Source of the DNA: Burkholderiales bacterium
Lineage (GTDB): Bacteria; Pseudomonadota; Gammaproteobacteria; Burkholderiales; Burkholderiaceae_B
Length of the DNA: 45,144 nucleotides
Direction: 5' to 3'
Assembly: GCA_027484315.1 (NCBI GenBank)
Contig: JAIXTE010000053.1
Coordinates: 1 to 45,144, forward strand
In this document: positions 17,139-34,092 of the stretch, one piece after another
How positions within the stretch are numbered: position 1 is the first letter of the stretch
How the letters are laid out: each line of letters begins with the position of its first letter
Position numbers and translations under genes: made by a program
Notes under the pieces: generated by a model
Database searches by the model: none
What the model was told of the DNA's origin: nothing
Seen by the model: only the letters and a program-made list of their open reading frames with translations

Positions 17139-17155
17139 ACCTGCTGGTTCTTTCT
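17137..17155. terminator. possible short bidirectional terminator
   Basis: A 5-bp stem GAACC/GGTTC with loop TGCT spans the stop of the 151-aa gene and is followed by TTTCT. It sits exactly between convergent genes (16683-17138 and parC). The stem is short, so termination strength is doubtful. Confidence 0.35.
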
Positions 17156-19511
17156 AAGAAGTCTTCACCTTGAATTTTTTCACGTTTAGCGCGATGAGCC
17201 GTCCCCTTTGAGCACGTGACCCCAACTCGAATTCCACAGGCGCTGTTTTTATTTCAGCTCTAGTGTCCAGCTCAATATTTACTACTTTGTAATCACTGAC
17301 AAACTGGGGTTGAATCATTCTCTCATTGGGTTTTAAGCCCAGCAACTGCAGCCCCCTGCCCTTATCTGCTTCTCTAAGTTCTGACAGCGGAAAGGCTAAG
17401 GCCTTGAGGGATTCCGAATTTACACAACAGAAGAAATCGTTGAGGGCCATGGGTGAGTAGAGCTTCTCGCCTTCCTTCACTGAAAAATAAGCTTTGCCTG
17501 ATTTGTTCTTGGATAGCAGAAATTTGATCTGGCTAATGAAACCATATCCTCGGTCGCAGCAAATAAAGAATTTTTCCTCCGGTGTTCCCGAAATAATGGC
17601 CACGGGTTTCGCCTTGGGTGATATTTCAATCAATGATGAAAGGGGGACACCATCTGTTTTGCCGGAGGGAACGGAAGTATAGCTAATCGTGTAAGATCGG
17701 CCATCTGAGGTGATTAAGCAAAGTGGGTTTTGTGTTTCCGTTTCGATGTATTGTTTTATCCCATCGCCGTCTTTAAAGCTAACAGTGGACGTGTCGATTG
17801 AATGACCCACTCTCTGTTTGATCCAGCCTTTCTTTGAAAGAAATACAGTTACCTTCTCGTTGAGTGTTGCAGCCTCTGAGACAGTGGATCTCTCATACTC
17901 CTCAATTGCTGTTCTCCTTTCGTCGCCATACTTCTTCGTGTCTTCAAGGATTTCCCTTGAAACGAAATTTCGGATGTTCTTTTCTGTTGAGAGGATCTCC
18001 TTATGGGATCCCAGCTCCCTCAGCAGGGTTTGAATCTCGCTCTCCAGTTTAATACCTTCGAGTCTAGCGAGTTGACGGAGTCTGATTTCCAGAATGTCCT
18101 CTGCTTGGATCTCTGATAGTGAGAATTCCTCCATCAGCTCCAGCTTCGGTTCTTCTGCTTCCCTTATCACTTTGATTACCCTGTCGATGTTAAGGAAAGC
18201 AATCATTCTTCCATCAAGAATATGAAGCCGGGAGTCGATTTGTCTGATGCGGTTCTCGATCCTCTTGACGACTTGGCCAATCCGAAAACCACACCACTCG
18301 CTCACGATTTCGTAAATACCCTTTTGAGAGGGCTTTGAATCAAGTCCTATGGTAACCAGGTTTAAAGAGAAGGTAGACTCAAGAGATGTGTAGGCCAACA
18401 TTGTGCTTACAAATTCGGACCTATCAATTTTTGCACTCTTCGGTTCGATAACAATTCGAACTTTATGCTCTTTTCCTGACTCATCACGGATACAATCGAT
18501 GAGACTTAGAAAAAGCGTTTTGATTCTTTTCTGCTCTGGATCAAGATCCTTTTTTCCTGACTTGGGTTGTGGGTTTGATAGCGCCTCAATTTGTTCGAGG
18601 ATCTTTGCCGAGGACACGCCGTGGGGAAGTTCTGTAACAACAAACTGCCATTGGCCCTTGCTGAGTTCCTCGATGTGGCTTCGACATCTTAATGCAATAG
18701 ATCCCTTCCCGGATTTATAGGCATCCAGCATAGCTTCCCTAGACGATATGCATAAGCCTCCGCCCGGGAAATCCGGCCCCCTGAACCTTTCGAAAAATTC
18801 GTTTTCGGTCGAGATTTCGCCAGAGACAATGCTTGATGCAATATTTCCTATCTCGGTTAAATTGTGAGACGGAATTTCTGTTGCCATACCAACGGCAATT
18901 CCCGACGCTCCGTTTAGAAGGAGCATTGGAAGCCTTGCCGGGAGATAAACCGGTTCCTCAAAAGCGCCGTCATAATTCTTTTTCATGGGAACGGTTCCCA
19001 TACCCATCTCGTCGAGAAGCAACTCAGAGTATTTTGTGAGCCTCACTTCGGTGTAACGCATTGCTGCAGCAGAGTCTCCGTCTCTCGAACCAAAGTTACC
19101 CTGTCCGTCAATCAATGGGTATCTGAGGGAAAAGTCCTGGGCTTGCCTTACCATAGCGTCATATACGCTACTGTCCCCATGCGGATGGAGTTTACCCAGA
19201 ACGTCGCCCACGACCCTCGCGGATTTGACGTGTTTCGAGTTGGGATTAAGTCCCAGTAGGTGCATTGAGTAGATAATTCTTCTTTGAACAGGTTTCTGTC
19301 CGTCAGACAGATCAGGGAGAGCCCTCCCTTTTAATACGGCGATCCCGTATGTAAGGTATGCGTTCCTTGTGTATTCGCTAAAAAAATCCGAACTAGCAAC
19401 CTCAATAGGTCCCCCGTGGGGCGGCTCTGGAGGTTGTTTTTCCAACAAGTCGGAATTGTCGATCAATTCCTGATCATTCCCAAATAGATCCAAGTTCTCT
19501 TGCATTGTCAT
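17154..19511 (-). CDS. parC: DNA topoisomerase IV subunit A (ParC), 785 aa
   Basis: The DNA-cleaving subunit of topoisomerase IV, which decatenates replicated circles. The breakage-reunion domain (about 40-510) carries the quinolone-region motif [12 protein letters not shown] and the active-site tyrosine Tyr153 in [11 protein letters not shown]. The C-terminal domain (about 520-785) is the beta-pinwheel region. Length is close to E. coli ParC (752 aa), arguing for TopoIV over the longer GyrA, and there is no GyrA box. At the quinolone positions Ser114 matches the drug-sensitive serine (E. coli Ser80) and Asp118 replaces Glu84. The start overlaps the parE stop by 4 bp (ATGA), so the subunits are made together. 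Plasmid location is unusual; chromosomal copies are normally elsewhere. Confidence 0.95.
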
Positions 19512-21478
19512 TCTTCTGATCCATATTTATCGCCAAAGGTCTCTAACAACTCACGACGAGCGTTCGATTCATTTTTGGCCATGAGTTTATTCAGCTCGAC
19601 AAAGGTGTTGCCGGTGAAATCATCTGTTGTTAGCTGAATCATCTTCCTTGTTTCAGGGTTGAGCGTAGTCTCCCAGAGCTGTTCGGCGGACATCTCGCCC
19701 AGTCCCTTGAAACGAGACACGGCTATAGATGTTTCTTTGACTCCCTCTTTGATCAACCGGTCAAACACAATTCTCTTCTCGTCTTCGTCGATACAGTAAA
19801 TCTTTCTCGCCGGCCTCCCCTTTCCTGAGGCGGGTGTATCTATGCGAAACAACGGGGGCAAAGAAACATATACATGCCCGCTTTTCACAAGCAATGGAAA
19901 GTGCCTGAAAAAAAGAGTGATCAATAAAACTTGGATGTGTGAGCCGTCAACATCGGCGTCGGACAAGATGCATATCTTGCTGTAACGTAAACCGGTCAGG
20001 TCCCCCTTTTCAGGAGAGTCGTGAGGATCAACTCCGATAGCAACTGAGATATCATGGATCTCTCGGTTTGCGAATAGCCTGTCCATCTCAGTTTCCCAGG
20101 CATTTAAGACTTTTCCTCTGAGTGGCAAGATGGCCTGGTTTTCCTTGTTCCTACCCATTTTTGCTGAACCACCGGCAGAATCACCCTCGACAAGGAAAAC
20201 CTCTCTTTCGTCTAGATTGCTGGTCTCGCAGTCTGTCAGTTTCCCTGGTAGTGTTGCAACCCCACTGGATTTTCTTTTGTCGATCTTTTTCGCGTTGTTT
20301 TGCCTGCGAGCTGCTGCAGCTAAGACGATTTCCGCAATCCTTTTCCCGATTTCTATGTGGTCGGATAACCAAAGTTCGAACGCGGATCTAACGGACCATG
20401 AAACAAGTTTTATTGCCTCACGATTATTCAGCCTCTCTTTTGTTTGCCCTTGGAACTGAGGGTCGACCAACTTGGCAGCCAAGATGAAACTCATTGAGCT
20501 AGAAACATCATCTGAGTTTATTCGAAGCCCCTTTTGCGATAGGTTATGGATCTCAATAAAAGATTTTAGCGCTCCGAAAACCGCCTCCTTTAATCCAGAT
20601 TCATGCGTACCGCCCAGGGCAGTTGGTATCAGGTTTACAAATGATCTTCGGCAGTATGGAGCATCCTGATGGAAGCAGAACGCAACCTCGCATCCCTCCC
20701 CTGCCTCGAAACCTGTCTCCGTTATGTTTTCGGAGAACTTCTCAAGATGAAAAAACAAAGATGTATCAGACATCTCCACTGATTCGGCCAGGCTCTGGGA
20801 GATGCCATTTTGGAATTGGTATGTGGTATCTTCAAAATCACCCTCGGATATCTCCCTACGATAAACGAACGCCACCCCCTTTAGGAGCATAGCTTTATCC
20901 CTTAAGGTATCTCTTAGTTCCTTGGCAGGAATTTGTTCGTTATCGAAGTATTTGGGGTTTGGCCAGGACCGAACGCTTGTTCCGGTTTTGGTGATCTCAC
21001 AAGGCCCCACCTTTGAAAGGGGCTCAAGAACGTCTCCGTTTGAGAAAACAATACGGTGCACTTTGCTTTCTCTGTGCACGGTAACTTCGAGACGCTGTGA
21101 CAGCGCGTTGGTTACAGATACCCCCACGCCGTGGAGCCCACCAGAAAACCTATATGAGCTATTGGCGTCTTGTTTCGAGAATTTTCCGCCGGCGTGAAGC
21201 CTGGTAAATACAAGCTCAATTACGGAGACACCCTCTTCTGGATGCATGCCAGTAGGTATCCCCCTGCCGAAGTCCGAGACTTCCACACTCCCATCCAGGT
21301 AATGAGTTATTCGAATTTCATGTCCGTGGCCAGACAGAACCTCGTCTGACGCATTGTCTATGACCTCTTGGATAATGTGAAGGGGGTTTTCAGTCCTCGT
21401 GTACATGCCCGGCCGATGCTTGACAGGTTCGAGTCCCTTTAAAACTTTGATGTCTGATTCTTGATATTTGGTTGTCAT
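19508..21478 (-). CDS. parE: DNA topoisomerase IV subunit B (ParE), 656 aa
   Basis: The ATPase subunit of topoisomerase IV. GHKL ATPase: Glu38 and Asn42 in [16 protein letters not shown], and the lid motif [39 protein letters not shown], and the C-terminal [18 protein letters not shown]. Length near 630-660 aa indicates ParE rather than the longer GyrB. The frame stays open to ATG 21547 (679 aa), but the family start matches ATG 21478 ([18 protein letters not shown]) and the upstream stretch is AT-rich and promoter-like. No Shine-Dalgarno decides, so starts at 21490, 21514 and 21547 remain possible. Its stop overlaps the parC start. Confidence 0.93.
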
Positions 21479-21547
21479 TTGGCGAGCCATTCTGCCGTGA
21501 TTTATTGAGTTCATCAATTTGTACCATATTATTTTATCAAATTCCAT

Positions 21548-22041: not shown

Positions 22042-22062
22042 AAAATCCCGATTCGGGATTTT
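22042..22062. repeat. palindrome copy 1 (ATCCCGATTCGGGAT family)
   Basis: Perfect 10-bp arms around one central base; the core ATCCCGATTCGGGAT is extended by AA and TT on both sides. It lies immediately downstream of the stop of the minus-strand 304-aa gene. It could act as a hairpin in RNA or as a protein-binding site. Confidence 0.85.
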
Positions 22063-22066
22063 CGTA

Positions 22067-22981
22067 TCAACCCTTATATCCCTCGGAAGAAAATAGGTTC
22101 TGTCTTAATTTCGCAAGGCGTAGCTCTTTCATTAGCGCTTGTTTGCTCAGGGCCCTCTTCCCACGACCTAAAGTCCTAAATATCGACATTGATTCCCGGG
22201 GGGCAGGAAAGGTGGGGAACACACCCATATACGCCCTGTACCCACGGATGGCCTCTACCGTCTCAGAAGACAGCTCTAAAAATCCCGATTCGGGATCAAT
22301 GACTCCCCAGCTTCCCTTAATAGAAACAATATCGGACCCTTGGATTTTCAATAAGCGCTTGGCACCGAGATCATTCATCACCAGTAGTGCAGCCTTTAGC
22401 CTAAGACGCCTCTCTATACCAATTAGGCCGCCGCCAGAAAATGACTGCTCCAATGTCGAAATCGTCATCGCCAGGGATTCGTCATCTTCAGCGCTTGCTG
22501 GGTCACCGTATTCTGCCTTTTCAAATATTTCCGAGGACCTAATCCCAAAAGCCAGCAAAGCAAAGTTTTCAAAGTGGAATCTGATTTGTTTTAAAGATGA
22601 CCACCTCGGCTGCCTCACGAATGGTCGCCACGATTTGTTAAAGCCAAGCGTTCTTCTATAGATCGGGACGGCTGCTCCGAAAGAATCTGTGGGTGGATTC
22701 GACAGCCCCTCCCAAAGGTCGCGCAACATAGAAACACTCGATTCTCCTGCTTGCGGGGTTCTTTTGCAGATCAACCAGGCGTACTTTCTGGCTTCTGTTA
22801 GTCTGGCTTTTCTATAAACGGCGGGAGAGCCATCAACCCAACTTGATATCAACTCAACGAAGGATTTGTTACTGTCTTGATTGCGGGCAAGCTGAAAGTT
22901 ACTTGCGCAGGCATCCCAAACAAAGGATATCTGATCCAATGTTGATGCGCTTTGGCAATAGACTTTTTCCTCGTGAAACAT
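22067..22981 (-). CDS. tyrosine-recombinase-like protein lacking the catalytic C-terminus, 304 aa
   Basis: Function unproven. Residues about 180-230 (GGGLIGIERRLRLKAALLVM, NDLGAKRLLKIQGSDI) recall the start of the tyrosine recombinase catalytic domain, where an Arg follows a Gly-rich turn and precedes a D/SDI segment. The later HxxR and Tyr motifs are not visible. The N-terminal 150 residues are helical and basic, like a core-binding domain (RPFVRQPRWSSLKQIRFHFE). It may therefore be a DNA-binding relative that has lost strand-transfer activity, as with some plasmid proteins that bind clustered repeats. I use ATG 22981; the frame also opens at TTG 22999. Palindrome copy 2 lies within the coding region, and the gene is divergent from 23167. 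Confidence 0.55.
   Translation of the reverse strand: MFHEEKVYCQSASTLDQISFVWDACASNFQLARNQDSNKSFVELISSWVDGSPAVYRKARLTEARKYAWLICKRTPQAGESSVSMLRDLWEGLSNPPTDSFGAAVPIYRRTLGFNKSWRPFVRQPRWSSLKQIRFHFENFALLAFGIRSSEIFEKAEYGDPASAEDDESLAMTISTLEQSFSGGGLIGIERRLRLKAALLVMNDLGAKRLLKIQGSDIVSIKGSWGVIDPESGFLELSSETVEAIRGYRAYMGVFPTFPAPRESMSIFRTLGRGKRALSKQALMKELRLAKLRQNLFSSEGYKG
22282..22296. repeat. palindrome copy 2
   Basis: ATCCCGA, one base T, then TCGGGAT: an exact copy of the 15-bp core. It lies inside the coding sequence of the recombinase-like gene, where it encodes part of the segment DPESGF, so the site is kept despite coding constraint. Confidence 0.85.
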
Positions 22982-23166
22982 TAAACTTAACTTATTCAAT
23001 TATGCAACCCATTGAAAAATCACGCGTTTTCACCGATTAACTAATCGCACCGTGAAACATTGTGCATCGTATATGAGTTTGCGTCGAAAATCCAGTAATA
23101 TTGATAACAAAGCTGATATGCTATCAATAACGATATCGTAATTTGTTATTAACACTCCAAATCAAG

Positions 23167-23802
23167 ATGGTGGACATGACCTCCCGCAACCTCGTGACGC
23201 TCGTAGATGTAAAACAAGAGACGGCAACTCGTAACGCGAAGATTAGAAATGGACTGAGGAATGTTATACGAGGTAGCACCTTTTATCAGGCGGCTAGGTT
23301 ATATGGCATCAAGATCGAGGAGCTTTATTCATATCACAGACGTTCACAGGAAAAGATTTATTCCCGATTCGGGTTTTCTTCGTCGCCCTACTCTTTGACA
23401 GACTTGCAGACCCAGAAAAGCCCGCCTGCAGCGCTTGTTCGGTTTTTAAGACGCAGGCACGGGGGGGAACTAGCTTCAGACATCCTTAGTAAGTTTTACT
23501 TGGTGCCCAAAGAGAAAACCAGCGACCTGTTGAGGGATACAAGCTCGCTGACGCCGATCTCTGCGGCCGCCTTTGCAGAGTGTATCGGCTGTAGAGCAAT
23601 CTCAAGATCTTCGGGGTCTCTTCGAGAGATAGGAATTGGCTTCGGGAAGAAGTCTTCAATGTCCGTAGTTCAAGACGCAGCGATCTGGTGCGAAACCTAC
23701 AGCGACTACTTGAATGCACTTGAGGGTGGCTACCGACTCGACATCATTGAGGTCGTCGGCTACATGTCAAAAAGTGAAAACCGGGGCATCGTCACCAGAT
23801 AA
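23167..23802 (+). CDS. hypothetical protein of the palindrome module, 211 aa
   Basis: Not recognised. The N-terminal 70 residues are basic and helical with a helix-turn-helix-like element (GSTFYQAARLYGIKIEELYS then YHRRSQEKIY), consistent with DNA binding. The rest is mixed (ALVRFLRRRHGGELASDILSK, SVVQDAAIWCETYSDYLNAL). Starts at ATG 23167 or 23176 are possible; the frame opens at TTG 23143. It is divergent from the recombinase-like gene across about 185 bp. One palindrome lies inside it, and another overlaps its stop codon (TAA at 23800). The arrangement of two divergent putative DNA-binding genes plus repeated palindromes suggests a dedicated protein-site system. Confidence 0.6.
   Translation: MVDMTSRNLVTLVDVKQETATRNAKIRNGLRNVIRGSTFYQAARLYGIKIEELYSYHRRSQEKIYSRFGFSSSPYSLTDLQTQKSPPAALVRFLRRRHGGELASDILSKFYLVPKEKTSDLLRDTSSLTPISAAAFAECIGCRAISRSSGSLREIGIGFGKKSSMSVVQDAAIWCETYSDYLNALEGGYRLDIIEVVGYMSKSENRGIVTR
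23363..23373. repeat. palindrome copy 3 (core only)
   Basis: CCCGATTCGGG: the central 11 bp of the repeat is exact, while the flanking AT pairs have diverged. It lies inside the 211-aa gene. Confidence 0.7.
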
Positions 23803-23820
23803 ATCCCAATTCGGGATTTA
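23800..23820. repeat. palindrome copy 4 (one mismatch)
   Basis: TAAATCCC-AAT-TCGGGATTTA: 10-bp arms with one mismatched pair (A in place of G in the left arm). It starts on the stop codon of the 211-aa gene and may also fold as an RNA hairpin at the transcript end. Confidence 0.8.
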
Positions 23821-23907
23821 TCTCGAAATCTCCTGTCAGGGCATTCTCACCCGCCTAGTTAGTGGTTAGTAGGCCCACCACTAATTGCATCTTCGATCTA
23901 GCGCAAA

Positions 23908-23928
23908 AAAATCCCGACTCGGGATTTT
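23908..23928. repeat. palindrome copy 5
   Basis: Perfect 10-bp arms with central C instead of T (core ATCCCGACTCGGGAT). It lies in non-coding sequence 106 bp after the stop of the 211-aa gene, followed by TTTT. A terminator role is possible, but the same sequence inside genes argues for a protein site. Confidence 0.85.
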
Positions 23929-24065
23929 GCTGCGAACATCATTTATGACGCTCAACATCGAGCCGCATAACGCTGAATATCTAACCTAAGCTAAACAAAG
24001 CAATCTCAACCATCGATCACCTCAAAGGTGCACCTGCTCGATGCTTTTAACGGAAATACTTTCAG

Positions 24066-24120
24066 CATGACCCATGACCCATGACCCATGACCCATGACC
24101 CATGACCCATGATCCATGAT
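24066..24120. repeat. heptanucleotide tandem repeat CATGACC
   Basis: Six perfect CATGACC units are followed by CATGATC and a truncated CATGAT that runs straight into palindrome copy 6. It is non-coding; the reverse-strand frame through it only reflects the repeat. Such short tandem repeats can vary in copy number by slippage or act as a clustered binding site. Confidence 0.95.
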
Positions 24121-24133
24121 CCCGATTCGGGAT
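24119..24133. repeat. palindrome copy 6
   Basis: Exact core ATCCCGATTCGGGAT fused to the end of the CATGACC heptamer array. This is the last copy in the cluster; no further copy was noticed in the rest of the window. Confidence 0.85.
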
Positions 24134-24260: not shown

Positions 24261-24806
24261 ATGAACACTCAACCCTGGAAACTTACTTTCGCAGCCGTCT
24301 TACTCGGAACGCTGTCATTCGCCTGCACGGACACCAATACGGACTCAAGAGCGGCAGACACGACATCCGTAATGGACCAGCAAAAACGGATCGAGGAAGC
24401 CGCGTCAATCTACGGTCAACGAGATGGCATTCTTGCTGAACAAAAACTTTTGATGAACCTACACGATGGATATAAGTGGGGCGAGGTTTACAATCTGAAT
24501 GAGAGATCAGCAAAGGCGTTAATCATCATGGCCTTTGAGCAACGAGCAAACAGCTCGAAAATGAACGCGATAAGAGTAGGTGGGGAAAAAAAGAAGGCTT
24601 TCGATATTCTTTATGAAAGAACCAAGAGCAGCTTGGATGTGGAGGCCTGCAGGGTAGGGCGAAGCAACCTGCAAGCGCTTTGCAAAATCACCATTGATGA
24701 ATGGGACGCGAAATCCAAGCAATTCAAATCTGTGATCAATTATCAGGCGTTCGCAAGAGGCTCGGTTGAACTCTCCTGGCGTCCTGTCGCCCTCAAAGGG
24801 AAGTAG
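24261..24806 (+). CDS. putative lipoprotein, 181 aa
   Basis: Family not recognised. The signal sequence (MNTQPWKLTFAAVLLGTLSFAC) ends in lipobox SFAC, predicting lipidation at Cys22. It is followed by Thr-Asp and a Thr/Asp-rich linker. The mature domain has helices (VMDQQKRIEEAASIYGQRDG, ERSAKALIIMAFEQRAN), two cysteines (EACRVG, ALCKIT) and a beta-like end (SVINYQAFARGSVELSWRP). AGGAG lies about 14 nt upstream of the ATG, slightly far. It is followed by a likely terminator, so it is probably monocistronic. Confidence 0.75.
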   Translation: MNTQPWKLTFAAVLLGTLSFACTDTNTDSRAADTTSVMDQQKRIEEAASIYGQRDGILAEQKLLMNLHDGYKWGEVYNLNERSAKALIIMAFEQRANSSKMNAIRVGGEKKKAFDILYERTKSSLDVEACRVGRSNLQALCKITIDEWDAKSKQFKSVINYQAFARGSVELSWRPVALKGK

Positions 24807-24957: not shown

Positions 24958-27042
24958 ATGTTTAAAAAGAAGACGATTGGTGTAGTGGTGGCCTCTGCTG
25001 TTGTAGCAGGCCTTTCATTTGCTGCCGTAGCCGGTTCAAAGCCCGAGCGCTTTATTGAAGATCGTTTGGTGGTTCAACTGCGTGATGCTGATGTTCGAGC
25101 TAAAAGTCTGCGCCAGGTCAATGATATGGTTGTTGGGCTACTCAAGACAAACGGCGTTACGGGCTCCGTGATTAATCAGTTGTCAGGGGGCCGCTTTGTA
25201 ACACTTAAGCTTTCCGGGGTGCGCAGCAAAGGTGATGTCGACGCGGCTATTAACCGTTTGAAATCGAATCGCTCAGTGTATAGCGTTGAGCGCGACGTTC
25301 GGATTACCACAAAGGCCGCCACAGCAACGACTTATAATGACCCCGCCTGGTCTCTGCTTTATAACCTTTTTCGCGGGACCGGTAGCACTCGCGTTGAAAG
25401 CCAGCAAGGCGAGGATGGTGGTTTGCCAGCGGTGCGTTATGACAGTCGGTTGCAAGACGTTGTTGCGGACTTTAGCTCAAAATCGGGTGACGTTATTTTT
25501 GGTGTAATCGATTCCGGTTATACACCAGGCGCGGAGTTCGGAGACCGGATTCTGAGTCAACTGAATTATTTGGAGCCGCTGTCAAATGGCAGCCCTTCAA
25601 CAAATGCTGTAATCCCAGGTGATTCCTGTAGCGATGACTTTCACGGTCAGGGCGTTCTGGGCCTAATCGGTGCGGCCGCTAATAATTCGACAGGTGTGGT
25701 GGGTATCGCTCCAAATTCGAAGTTTCATATCGTGCGGGCAGTGGATGCTTGCGGCGGGAGCTTGAGTGATGTGGCTGACGGGATTGAAGCTCTTGCGACC
25801 CGCACAACTCAGCGACCCCATGTGATCAACCTGTCCCTGGGCTCAGTGCCGAACTTCGAGGGTGATTATGGCGAGTGCCCAGTATTCATGCAGTCAGCGA
25901 TTGATGTTGCCACGGCGGCAGGTGTTGTTGTAGTTGCTTCTGCAGGCAATGAGGGCTCGAATATAGATATCAGCATTCCAGCAAAATGCAACAACGTTAT
26001 CTCGGTTGGAGCGGTGGATTCGGCTGGCAAATTGACCACGTATACCAGTGCGAGTGAGCGCTTGACAGTCTCGACATATGGTGGGGGAGGAAGTCCTGGT
26101 TTTACTGATGCCCGCATTCCATCGTTGCCTGGTTTTAATGGACAGCCGTTTGATTATCAAACTGGTACGAGTTTCTCGGCTCCTTTGGTCTCCGCGGTGC
26201 TTGGATACGCGCGGATTGCCAAACCTACGCTGAGCCCCTCAGAGCTTAAGGCGCTGCTTGTGCAGAGTTCAAGCAAAACCTCCGGCGAGTACGATATCCG
26301 TTGCCAAGGCCAATGCAGCAACATGAATGCCTACGCTTTCTTGCAAGGAGTCGACCCGATTGGCTTTGCCACGCCCGGTGCTAACCCAAACCCGAATCCG
26401 GACCCCCAGCCTGAACCAGAACCGGAGCCAAATCCTAACCCTAACCCGAACCCGAACCCTAACCCAAACCCTAACCCAAACCCTAACCCAAACCCTAACC
26501 CCAATCCGAATCCGAATCCGAATCCGAATCCGGATCCACAACCAGAGCCCGAGCCTGAAACTGGCTTCTCTGATGAAGAAAAGGCTGGCCTGCCTGCGAA
26601 TTCTGTTGAATCGATGCCTCTACCAATCAGCATCCTTCAGTCGAATTACAGCGCGATCTGTTCAATCAGTGTGGACGACACAGCGCGAGCAAGAGTGAAG
26701 CTACTGTCAGTTCCAACTGCGTGTAGCGGTGCATCTGTTCGAGGAGCTAACGTCGGGGCGAATGGTCAGCAATTCATCATTGCATCACCGGCTGGTGAAG
26801 TGAATGTGGTTGTAACGTCCGGTTTGGATGAAAACAACAACGTAATCCAAGCGAACATCCCTGTAGGTTTGGTACTGAGATCCGATGGATCGGTTGTTAA
26901 TCGGGCGACGGTTAGTGAAAACACAGGCTCGACCACCGCGGTAGTTGGTGGAGGTGGTGGAGGCGGTGGTTCAATGAGTATTCTGGGCTTGTTCGGTTTG
27001 TTTGCCGGCCTGCTGTTTACGCGAAGGATCGCTCGCAAGTAA
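24958..27042 (+). CDS. secreted subtilisin-like serine protease with Asn-Pro repeat and GlyGly-CTERM-like tail, 694 aa
   Basis: Peptidase family S8. Layout: Sec signal peptide (about 1-25, VVVASAVVAGLSFAAVAGS), an I9-like propeptide (about 30-120), then the catalytic domain with Asp185 (VIDSGYTPG), His229 (DDFHGQGV), the oxyanion Asn in ASAGNEG, and Ser405 (GTSFSAPL). Residues 476-534 are a Pro spacer with 17 consecutive Asn-Pro pairs flanked on both sides by DPQPEPEPE. A C-terminal domain ends in eight glycines (664-671), a hydrophobic helix and TRRIARK. That tail fits GlyGly-CTERM, a signal processed by rhombosortase in type II secreting bacteria; no rhombosortase is in the window. ATG 24958 with AAGGTGGG is preferred over the longer TTG frame. 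Confidence 0.92.
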   Translation: MFKKKTIGVVVASAVVAGLSFAAVAGSKPERFIEDRLVVQLRDADVRAKSLRQVNDMVVGLLKTNGVTGSVINQLSGGRFVTLKLSGVRSKGDVDAAINRLKSNRSVYSVERDVRITTKAATATTYNDPAWSLLYNLFRGTGSTRVESQQGEDGGLPAVRYDSRLQDVVADFSSKSGDVIFGVIDSGYTPGAEFGDRILSQLNYLEPLSNGSPSTNAVIPGDSCSDDFHGQGVLGLIGAAANNSTGVVGIAPNSKFHIVRAVDACGGSLSDVADGIEALATRTTQRPHVINLSLGSVPNFEGDYGECPVFMQSAIDVATAAGVVVVASAGNEGSNIDISIPAKCNNVISVGAVDSAGKLTTYTSASERLTVSTYGGGGSPGFTDARIPSLPGFNGQPFDYQTGTSFSAPLVSAVLGYARIAKPTLSPSELKALLVQSSSKTSGEYDIRCQGQCSNMNAYAFLQGVDPIGFATPGANPNPNPDPQPEPEPEPNPNPNPNPNPNPNPNPNPNPNPNPNPNPNPNPNPDPQPEPEPETGFSDEEKAGLPANSVESMPLPISILQSNYSAICSISVDDTARARVKLLSVPTACSGASVRGANVGANGQQFIIASPAGEVNVVVTSGLDENNNVIQANIPVGLVLRSDGSVVNRATVSENTGSTTAVVGGGGGGGGSMSILGLFGLFAGLLFTRRIARK
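26431..26532 (+). repeat. coding tandem repeat encoding 17 Asn-Pro pairs
   Basis: AACCCN hexamers in frame inside the protease gene; part reads as AACCCTAACCCA repeated, which looks telomere-like but is coding. It is prone to slippage in 6-bp steps, which would keep the frame and change spacer length. Confidence 0.95.
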
Positions 27043-31750: not shown

Positions 31751-31793
31751 GATGTACATTGCGCTTCTGCAGTATCGTAATGTCTTAGGCATG

Positions 31794-31978
31794 CAGTCTC
31801 AAAATAAGCTGACAATTGAGAGCCGCTGATCCGGCGGCCCCACCTCCCAGATTTCTAAAAAAACTTCGTGTTTTCATTTCTTCTTTGCTTGACCATCTCC
31901 TGGCAAGCCCATTTCTGCCCAAAAAATGAACGATTGTTCAGTCTCAAAATAAGCTGAAAATCAGTCCCAAAATAAGTG
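31794..31978. repeat. repeats CAGTCTCAAAATAAGCTGA in the hipA-rep gap
   Basis: CAGTCTCAAAATAAGCTGA occurs exactly at 31794-31812 and 31939-31957, followed by a variant CAGTCCCAAAATAAGTG at 31962-31978. It resembles repeated binding sites at one end of an insertion sequence, but no transposase gene remains. The rest of the 31751-32100 gap shows no gene. Confidence 0.7.
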
Positions 31979-32230: not shown

Positions 32231-32362
32231 TGTTGCAATTAACGTTGGACTCGCTTTCACATATTGACTCTTGCGTGTACCAAGGGATTCATTGGGGAAT
32301 CCGATCCTTTTTCGGTGCCATACGTGTGGTAATTTATGGAAATCCGAAAGAATGGAGTCAAG

Positions 32363-33316
32363 ATGAACAACAAGAGCTTCAAGAAAACCGAAACTGGGCT
32401 CCTGATACCAGCAGAGCGCTCAATTATCACCGACGTACGAGGTGAAGAGAATTTCAGCATAGAGGTCCCCTCAGATGACTCAAATAACGTTGGATACCTC
32501 ACAAAGTCTCTGATCATTGCGACTCTCCCACATAAAGAACCCAATAAGCACGAAAAAATTACCTGGTCACGCCACAACGGGAATTTCACACTTCAAATCA
32601 ATCAGCACGTCGTTGGCAAGTCTGATGGGACTGAAGAGAGGGTTGGTTTCCCTTACGGAGTAATCCCCAGGTTGCTGCTTATTTTCGTATCGACAGAAGT
32701 AACACGCACGAGAAACCGTCATATTTATCTAGGCAGATCCTTGTCAGAGTTCCTTGATAGGCTTGGCATGACCGCAACAGGTGGCAAGAACGGCACCATT
32801 ACCCGGGTTAGAGAACAATGTAAAAGACTTTTCTCGGCGACTATCTGGGCTTCCGAAAACAAACCAGGGCATGACAAATCCCGCGGTATTCTTCTGGCAG
32901 ATGAACAGGACTACTTTTGGGACCCCTCTAAGCCAGAGCAAGCCTCACTGTGGCACTCCGAGATAGTAATTACGGAGGCGTTTTTTAACAAAATCATCGA
33001 ATCACCAGTACCGCTCGATCTTAATGCGGTCAGAGAGATCCAAAGGAGTCCGTTAGCTTTGGATGTCTACGCATGGTTGACCTGGCGTATGTTCAGTTTG
33101 AACAAGGAAGTGGCCATACCCTATACCGTTCTTCAGGCACAGTTCGGATCCGAATACAGTTCGCTTGCAAACTTCAAAGTTAAATTTGACGAAGCGGTGC
33201 GGAAAGTACTGAAGGTGTATCCAGTAAACCTCACAAAGGTTAGAGGGAAACTGATCCTTAAGCCTTCAGCGACCTCCATTCCCAACTATGGCCGGCGGAA
33301 GAAAGAAATTGAGTAA
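32363..33316 (+). CDS. repA: plasmid replication initiator, RepA_C family, 317 aa
   Basis: The replication initiator that binds iterons and opens the origin. The family core is clear: PYGVIPRLLLIFVSTEVTRT, LGRSLSEFLDRLGM then TGGKNGTITRVREQCKRLFS. This is the RepA_C pattern found in many Pseudomonas/Xanthomonas-type plasmids. The C-terminal region (LDVYAWLTWRM, EYSSLANFKVKFDEAVRKVL) resembles the second winged-helix part. I choose ATG 32363 (GGAG 6 nt upstream) over ATG 32336. It is directly followed by DnaA boxes and iterons, as expected for a self-contained replicon. It may repress its own promoter, as many such initiators do, but no iteron was seen upstream. Confidence 0.9.
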   Translation: MNNKSFKKTETGLLIPAERSIITDVRGEENFSIEVPSDDSNNVGYLTKSLIIATLPHKEPNKHEKITWSRHNGNFTLQINQHVVGKSDGTEERVGFPYGVIPRLLLIFVSTEVTRTRNRHIYLGRSLSEFLDRLGMTATGGKNGTITRVREQCKRLFSATIWASENKPGHDKSRGILLADEQDYFWDPSKPEQASLWHSEIVITEAFFNKIIESPVPLDLNAVREIQRSPLALDVYAWLTWRMFSLNKEVAIPYTVLQAQFGSEYSSLANFKVKFDEAVRKVLKVYPVNLTKVRGKLILKPSATSIPNYGRRKKEIE

Positions 33317-33344: not shown

Positions 33345-33357
33345 GTCGAGTTGTCCA

Positions 33358-33459
33358 CGAATAAGCGGTATTCCCGTTTCCGCATAAGCAGCATAGGATC
33401 CACGCATAAGCGGAAATCACCCTCGCATAAGAGGTATTATTTATACGCATAAGGAGCAT
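33358..33459 (+). repeat. forward iteron array, five copies
   Basis: 14-bp units start at 33358 (CGAATAAGCGGTAT), 33381 (CGCATAAGCAGCAT), 33403 (CGCATAAGCGGAAA), 33424 (CGCATAAGAGGTAT) and 33446 (CGCATAAGGAGCAT). Spacing is 21-23 bp, about two helical turns, so all units face the same side of DNA as expected for Rep binding. Confidence 0.9.
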
Positions 33460-33545
33460 AAAAAAAATCTCCTAAGTCATTGTTTCTGTAATTTTTTTTA
33501 TCCTCTCTATAAGTAGTTTTTTCTTGTATATATAAATAATAGTAG
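33460..33545. other. AT-rich region, candidate duplex-unwinding element
   Basis: A-tract after the last forward iteron, then T-tracts and TATATATAAATAATAG. It is strongly AT-rich and lies between the two iteron groups, where origin melting would be expected. Confidence 0.6.
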
Positions 33546-33644
33546 AAGGCCTGATTCTGGTGGATAACTAGTTCAGTTACAAAAAACAGCCAAAAACCCG
33601 TCTTCAGGGGAGAGTGATACGCCAAACACCAGCTCAAAAAGGAG

Positions 33645-34017
33645 CGCATAAACGGTATTGATCACAAAAAGCCCTTTGCAATCAACAGCGAAATCTTCAG
33701 GTACCACAAAACCTACCGAAAACGATACCATTTATGCGGGATTGAATCGGACCCGCAACCGAGAGCACATATCAAACGCCGGCCAAATGTTAATACACCT
33801 TATGCGCAGCAATATACCCAGAGGAACTTGCGGGACTAATACCATTTATGCGCAAATTGGCAGCCCGGCGGCCCCGGCGAGACTAGAAACCATGGCCTCC
33901 TCAGATATCTGGGCATGAAATGATACCGTTTATTCGTAAAAAACAAGACGACCCTAAGTTGCTGATTTCAATCGACCTTTTATTGAACACCGGCAAAAAA
34001 GAAATACTCCTTATGCG
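33645..34017 (-). repeat. second iteron group, mostly inverted
   Basis: One forward unit at 33645 (CGCATAAACGGTAT), then five inverted units: 33725 (ATACCATTTATGCG), 33793 (ATACACCTTATGCG), 33839 (ATACCATTTATGCG), 33923 (ATACCGTTTATTCG) and 34004 (ATACTCCTTATGCG). Spacing is wide and irregular (46-84 bp), unlike the compact first array, which suggests an inc/copy-control role such as handcuffing. Confidence 0.85.
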
Positions 34018-34092
34018 CTAATTGATCCACTTGTCGCGATCACTGCTTTTCCTCGCCAAATTTAAGAATTTACGGAAAATCAGGTATGTTTT

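Follow-up and report, generated by a model that had tools for sequence, protein, structure and literature searches.

We analysed a window of 45,144 bp, the whole of contig JAIXTE010000053.1 (C149) of a 155-contig, 4.04-Mb Burkholderiales genome (GCA_027484315.1), which carries a cluster of short palindromes spread over two divergent genes, P1 and P2. The palindrome is 15 bp long and consists of 7-bp arms around a 1-bp centre, with the best form ATCCCGA-T-TCGGGAT, and its six copies lie within 2.1 kb (22045-24133). P1 is a 310-residue open reading frame (ORF) on the reverse strand (22067..22999), with a TTG start and an in-frame ATG six codons in; it is an orphan with a faint likeness to tyrosine recombinases. 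P2 is an orphan ORF of 219 residues on the forward strand (23143..23802), also with a TTG start. The divergent region between them (23000..23142, no strand) contains a different inverted repeat at 23099-23129, and no copy of the palindrome lies in this shared promoter region.

The copies, none of which is assigned a strand, differ in how closely they follow the best form. Three of the six are exact 15-mers (22045, 22282, and 24119), and the remaining three have one or two changes. Specifically, copy 1 (22042..22062, 15-mer 22045-22059; AAAATCCCGATTCGGGATTTT) has a 15-mer that ends 8 bp past the P1 stop codon, and copy 2 (22282..22296) is an exact 15-mer within P1. Copy 3 (23361..23375), within P2, retains the 11-bp core alone, with two mismatches in the 15-mer. 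Copy 4 (23797..23823, 15-mer 23803-23817) has one arm base changed, a 15-mer that starts one base past the P2 stop, and 11-bp outer arms that pair. Copies 5 and 6 are intergenic; the former (23902..23934, 15-mer 23911-23925) has C at the centre and 16-nt arms that are 88% complementary, while the latter (24119..24133) is exact and adjoins a tandem array of the heptamer CATGACC (24066..24119, forward strand, 7.7 copies). The heptamer array sits upstream of a lipoprotein-like gene at 24261, and its length may vary. A reading of this DNA made earlier without database searches, here called the sequence-only reading, had let all six copies share the core ATCCCGATTCGGGAT; this is true of the three exact copies and fails for those at 23911, 23803, and 23361. 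Its placement of two copies in coding sequence agrees with the copies at 22282 in P1 and 23361 in P2.

Statistics and distribution of the palindrome

The cluster is far denser than chance would give. At up to three mismatches, the window contains 15 strand-matches to the palindrome against 1.71 expected, and none of 100 shuffles reaches 15; the 11-bp core CCCGANTCGGG occurs five times against 0.05 expected, again with none of 100 shuffles reaching that count. When six uniform sites were placed at random in 45,144 bp, a span of 2089 bp or less arose in none of 2,000,000 draws, so the six-copy cluster claimed by the sequence-only reading is real. The gaps between copies are irregular, ranging from 108 to 1079 bp. 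Outside the window contig, the 4.04-Mb genome has a single exact copy, at C44:14296, which likewise lies in an ORF. The three coding copies (in P1, P2, and the C44 ORF) are read in three different frames, so that no peptide is conserved and selection acts on the DNA. The palindrome array is therefore real, conserved at the DNA level, and nearly private to its contig. Additionally, short tandem repeats of AACCCG, CCTAAC, and AATCCG units lie inside a subtilase gene (26383-26537) and include two matches to the palindrome at three mismatches.

The exact 15-mer with any centre, ATCCCGANTCGGGAT, is present in 4 of 268 family genomes, with five occurrences in the genome of the window and one in each of three others. 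Genome-wide scatter of the palindrome had been named as the outcome that would count against a dedicated module, and exact copies are not scattered. Among 98 other public loci, comprising 62 genome-contig loci found by a 17-mer and 36 viral loci found by a 15-mer, none has a second copy at up to one mismatch within the stretch examined; the 17-mer scan by design matches only two of the six window copies, and clusters lacking AA/TT flanks could escape it. The 15-mer was not found in the papers searched, where only 11-mer strings gave matches, and none of these papers joined a 15-bp palindrome with parS, ParB, and plasmid.

The positions of the copies bear on several other explanations. Transcription terminators or RNA hairpins at gene ends would fit copies 1 and 4, which abut the stop codons of P1 and P2, and copies 4 (23803) and 5 (23911) do fold far better than shuffles, with z about -4. 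However, the remaining four sites give z from -1.99 to +0.63, a scan for intrinsic terminators (GC-rich stem plus T run) calls none of the six, two copies lie within genes, and the array occurs at one locus only. Moreover, CCCGATTCGGG is identical, centre included, in four of the six copies, which exceeds what a plain hairpin would need. We therefore consider terminators quite unlikely, as the sequence-only reading had argued. If the copies were operators for a local transcription regulator, their perfect dyad symmetry would be accounted for, and 128 bp separate the end of copy 6 from the downstream lipoprotein-like gene at 24261; yet four of the six copies lie within genes or at most 8 bp past a stop codon and none lies in the P1-P2 promoter region, which leaves this explanation scarcely probable.

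Local spread of a short mobile or duplicated palindrome, like repetitive extragenic palindromes (REP) or miniature inverted-repeat transposable elements (MITE), would be consistent with copies inside genes and with right flanks that resemble each other more closely than random stretches do (0 of 2000 for 20 nt and 2 of 2000 without the first three bases, in a post-hoc comparison). The left flanks are not alike, though, and a single orientation is unsupported by a flip test, in which mixed orientation scored 275 against 269 with none flipped. Apart from the core and AT-rich edges, a MAFFT alignment of the flanks shows little. With a single exact copy in the rest of the 4.04-Mb genome, exact copies do not show the many dispersed occurrences of such elements, and this origin appears very improbable.

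The flanking genes and the recombinase-like locus on C44

The sequence-only reading had cast P1 and P2 as dedicated binding proteins of the palindrome. Both have coding-like codon use and the cluster is centred on them, which would suit a self-contained maintenance or nucleoprotein module in which P2, P1, or both bind the sites and no ParB takes part. Against this stand the searches. Neither protein has a match in Pfam, PHROG, or PADLOC, NCBIfam and PDB give nothing meaningful for either (the single PDB match of P2 has an E value of 0.52), and hhalign finds no likeness of P2 to ParB (probability 1.7%). No relatives were found with which co-occurrence could be compared: P2 finds only its own copy in 200 family genomes and in 399 order genomes, and neither protein has a relative among PLSDB plasmids or viral contigs. 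AlphaFold models made without an alignment are poor, with a mean predicted local distance difference test (pLDDT) score of 35.3 for P1 and 47.6 for P2. As both genes are orphans and their shared promoter region has no copy, their role as dedicated binders gains no support. We consider such a stand-alone module unlikely, although the window contig has no ParB_N match and the ParB found elsewhere in the genome is of a subtype that predicts another palindrome geometry (see below).

P1 shows a faint similarity to recombinases. It is 23% identical over 269 positions to the recombinase-like protein of C44, with an E value of 9e-4 for this single two-sequence comparison. Of the 21 other window proteins, 14 obtain any score with a profile of six such recombinases, and P1 outscores all of these; its own shuffles do as well in 23 of 5000 cases, however, and its best domain against this hidden Markov model (HMM) has an E value of 17. 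Profile-to-profile comparison by hhalign gives a probability of 2%, and inspection by eye of the translations of P1 and of the DNA beyond it, in every frame, revealed no catalytic R...HxxR...Y set. P1 may thus possibly be derived from a recombinase, judging by its sequence, and would not be active as one. An exact 11-bp direct repeat, CGTGAAACATT, lies around the 5' end of P1 (22972-22982 and 23051-23061), and it includes half of the chromosomal parS motif as given in PMC5450999.

On C44, the exact copy is found early in a 298-residue recombinase-like ORF (L007:8441-9337), which is divergent from a KfrA_N-like gene. This tyrosine-recombinase-like ORF ends before the catalytic end, with a similar stretch in another frame; the truncation may reflect either decay or an assembly error. 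C44 also carries three CCTAGC-N4-GCTAGG palindromes at C44:40588-41303 (L008:589-1304), the sole palindrome of at least three copies found there.

This locus and the faint similarity of P1 to its recombinase would be in keeping with recombination or resolution sites served by a tyrosine recombinase and a helper, as in TnpS/TnpT-rst or in plasmid dimer resolution. In the TnpS/TnpT systems of Tn4651 relatives, rst is flanked by the two divergent genes (PMC7157771). The window shares with these systems a divergent gene pair of which one member is a recombinase (in P1, no more than recombinase-like); it differs in that no copy lies between the divergent genes, and an assignment of P1 and P2 as TnpS and TnpT is unsupported. 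The C44 locus likewise has no site between its divergent genes, and six sites this close would invite deletions if active. Together with the profile results and the missing catalytic set of P1, these points make recombination sites an improbable explanation. It is also distinctly unlikely that the array belongs to a ParB-free partition or maintenance module, in which a new DNA-binding family (P2, perhaps with P1) would read the odd-centred sites and would also touch the recombinase/KfrA-like locus of C44 through the remote exact site.

Plasmid context and palindrome arrays of related plasmids

The window contig carries a RepA (PF04796, RepA_C; 32336..33316, forward strand), the only RepA_C match in its genome. 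Repeat families at 31793-31976 and 33354-34024 flank repA, and the replication repeats therefore likely lie elsewhere than the palindrome cluster. Replication iterons were accordingly rejected as an identity for the cluster: the repeats beside repA are 7.7-9.9 kb off and unrelated to the palindrome. The contig also encodes topoisomerase IV ParC and ParE (17154-21547), the small chain of ribonucleotide reductase, HipA, and a RecD-like helicase, and a tRNA scan of it found none. The parE that the sequence-only reading placed next to the cluster is indeed there, as the topoisomerase IV gene with parC beside it; two further type II topoisomerase B subunits are encoded in the same genome. We infer from these features that the contig is a plasmid.

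The genome has ParB_N domains on two contigs, a strong one on C137 and one of 25.4 bits, just below the cut-off, on C113. C137 is taken as chromosomal because its strong ParB_N adjoins a strong ParA match. C113, of 19.5 kb, has parB (373 residues), parA (370 residues), and a tyrosine recombinase in a row and no palindrome cluster along its length. Having the only other ParB_N and no array of its own, C113 is the natural partner of the window. A 25-bp palindrome, AGTGTGTGCAAAATTTGCACACACT, lies at position 164 of C113 (L128), with a related second copy 74 bp on at 238, and it has no counterpart in the window. A ParA-like match on C131 was set aside as Mrp-like.

We used the C113 ParA to collect relatives, which gave 160 plasmid relatives at E≤1e-20, and looked for palindrome arrays at 10 par loci on nine plasmids of Burkholderiales and Pseudomonas. 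Eight loci were reached through ParA (L133-L137, L140-L142), L138 through a ParB match, and L143 through a KfrA-like match. A fixed detector, requiring at least three identical palindromes with 6-bp arms and a spacer of at most 4 bp within 3 kb, was positive at eight of the 10, with the clusters on the downstream side of a parB. By comparison, first-order Markov controls over 25 sequences gave no positive in 500. A Thauera recombinase locus that also has parA and parB (L015) is detector-positive with four copies, and L128 (C113) and L146, which includes the L137 locus, are negative. L137 itself has two copies of TATTAGCTGCTAATA. When the remainder of pJAB4138 was scanned for a remote array, only a weak three-copy CTGCGC cluster appeared (L145).

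These arrays resemble that of the window in several respects. Four are odd-centred with the 7-1-7 layout, consisting of TATAAGCnGCTTATA in five and in six copies, GTCTAGAnTCTAGAC in three, and TTTTCACnGTGAAAA in 20 at up to two mismatches; four others are even-centred (L134, L135, L136, and L138). The sequences are mostly plasmid-specific, with one common to two Massilia plasmids, and the Cupriavidus locus (L134) and Paraburkholderia pBN3 (L135) have a common TGCACCGGTGCA centre. The arrays of Massilia litorea, Massilia sp. H6, Paraburkholderia PPGU16_p2, and Pseudomonas pBYT1-1 are, like that of the window, multi-copy 15-bp 7-1-7 palindromes with irregular spacing, which in Massilia litorea is also wide (63-451 bp). 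They differ from the window array in having another sequence and in lying beside parB, and they are themselves putative parS sites. Copies within genes are found elsewhere too: an annotated hypothetical gene contains all of the L138 array, a helix-turn-helix gene contains one of the L135 copies, and pBYT1-1 has a lone genic copy some 18 kb away from parB. The genic copies of the window are therefore not peculiar, and the lone distant genic copy of pBYT1-1 resembles the C44 copy. A single stretch of pBYT1-1 also brings together parB, parA, a tyrosine recombinase, and a KfrA-like gene; between its rep and parB lie 19 TTTTCACnGTGAAAA sites at up to two mismatches (L143:15828-21962), with an IS21 element among them.

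Palindrome geometry may follow the ParB type. In an alignment of the ParBs, those of the GHRR/GERR type go with odd-centred arrays (L133, L141, L142, and L143), and those with DGETR or a variant go with the even-centred ones, on the basis of eight arrays only. Chromosomal ParBs carry GERR. As they nevertheless read an even 16-mer (PMC5450999), the rule is not general.

The candidate centromere and its possible readers

Taken together, these findings suggest that the six palindromes serve this plasmid as a parS-like centromere array, a reading to which we give a probability of about one half. Several observations favour it: the cluster is beyond chance, its context is that of a plasmid, the site is near-private to the contig, and its coding copies lie in three frames. 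Related plasmids have arrays on the parB side, four of them 7-1-7, with irregular spacing and genic copies, and C113 has the only ParB_N outside C137 and no cluster. Two features expected of a parS array are present, namely several clustered dyad-symmetric copies and an exact site confined to the window contig plus one place on C44. In such a system, a dimeric sequence-specific DNA-binding protein of the plasmid, ParB or a functional equivalent, would load at the six sites and build a partition complex, which an ATPase would then segregate. The kind of site is known, and the protein that reads it is not found; it is probably of the ParB type and acts in partition, and the candidates are the C113 ParB, P2, and the KfrA-like protein of C44.

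Several points weigh against the centromere array. The 45-kb window contig has no ParB_N match at E≤0.01 and no AAA_31 match at E≤0.001, so that the absence of parA and parB noted by the sequence-only reading holds at these thresholds. Neither an end overlap nor a common 20-mer joins C113 to the window, and their union in one replicon is unproven. Tetranucleotide correlations among C149, C113, and C44 are 0.44-0.63, against 0.18-0.29 with two chromosome-like pieces, but this likeness is weak because those pieces are short and the window's own halves correlate at only 0.31. The C113 ParB is of the DGETR type and is expected to read an even-centred site, which disfavours it as the reader, given a small sample. 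Further ParA-like ATPases are encoded on C112 and C115, and another partition protein without ParB_N may read the site. The 10 par loci were hand-picked rather than random, L137 and L140 are detector-negative, and a three-copy cluster also turned up in two (L008 and L145) of the 11 real sequences that have no par locus (L012, L013, L014, L007, L129, L008, L131, L010, L011, L144, and L145). At L142 the array comes after another par pair and not after the matched ParA, and the ATPase of that pair is 23% identical to the C113 ParA. Loose copies also exist outside the window: a genome-wide search at up to two mismatches gives 33 matches in the forward and 38 in the reverse direction, where the reversed pattern gives 7 in each, and the window itself accounts for part of this excess. 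Additionally, a second exact 11-bp core occurs in 2 of the 98 public loci (L030 and L113). It is the lack of parA and parB in the window, the subtype of the C113 ParB, and the other ParA-like ATPases that keep our confidence near one half.

Known centromeres offer partial parallels. Dispersal is common among KorB operators and chromosomal parS sites. In the F plasmid, sopC lies beside sopAB; its tandem repeats number twelve, each of 43 bp, and it has ten 16-bp inverted repeats (PMC6238139 and PMC9178275). The window likewise has a cluster of short inverted repeats, which in sopC are read by a ParB, and it differs in its irregular spacing and in its coding copies. The Bsr parS sites of Burkholderiales secondary replicons are 16-bp palindromes with a central CG, and PMC5450999 describes these Bsr ParABS systems as having short perfect palindromes of replicon-specific sequence on large plasmids and secondary chromosomes, as here. 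The window site differs from them in being 15 bp long with a 1-bp centre and in having no parA and parB alongside.

The sequence-only reading had seen a partition or recombination layout belonging to no recognised family. The centromere half of that proposal gains support from the parB-side arrays of related plasmids, while the recombination half is weak, with P1 lacking the catalytic set and the sites not at the rst position; the denial of any known family was too strong, since ParABS centromere arrays have a similar layout. It would be unusual for such an array to lie far from parAB and to overlap two genes. If the centromere reading is true, the palindrome adds one more centromere sequence for the par systems of large plasmids, which mostly seem to have a palindrome of their own, and the two palindrome geometries may track ParB subtype, which would make the co-evolution of ParB and parS testable.

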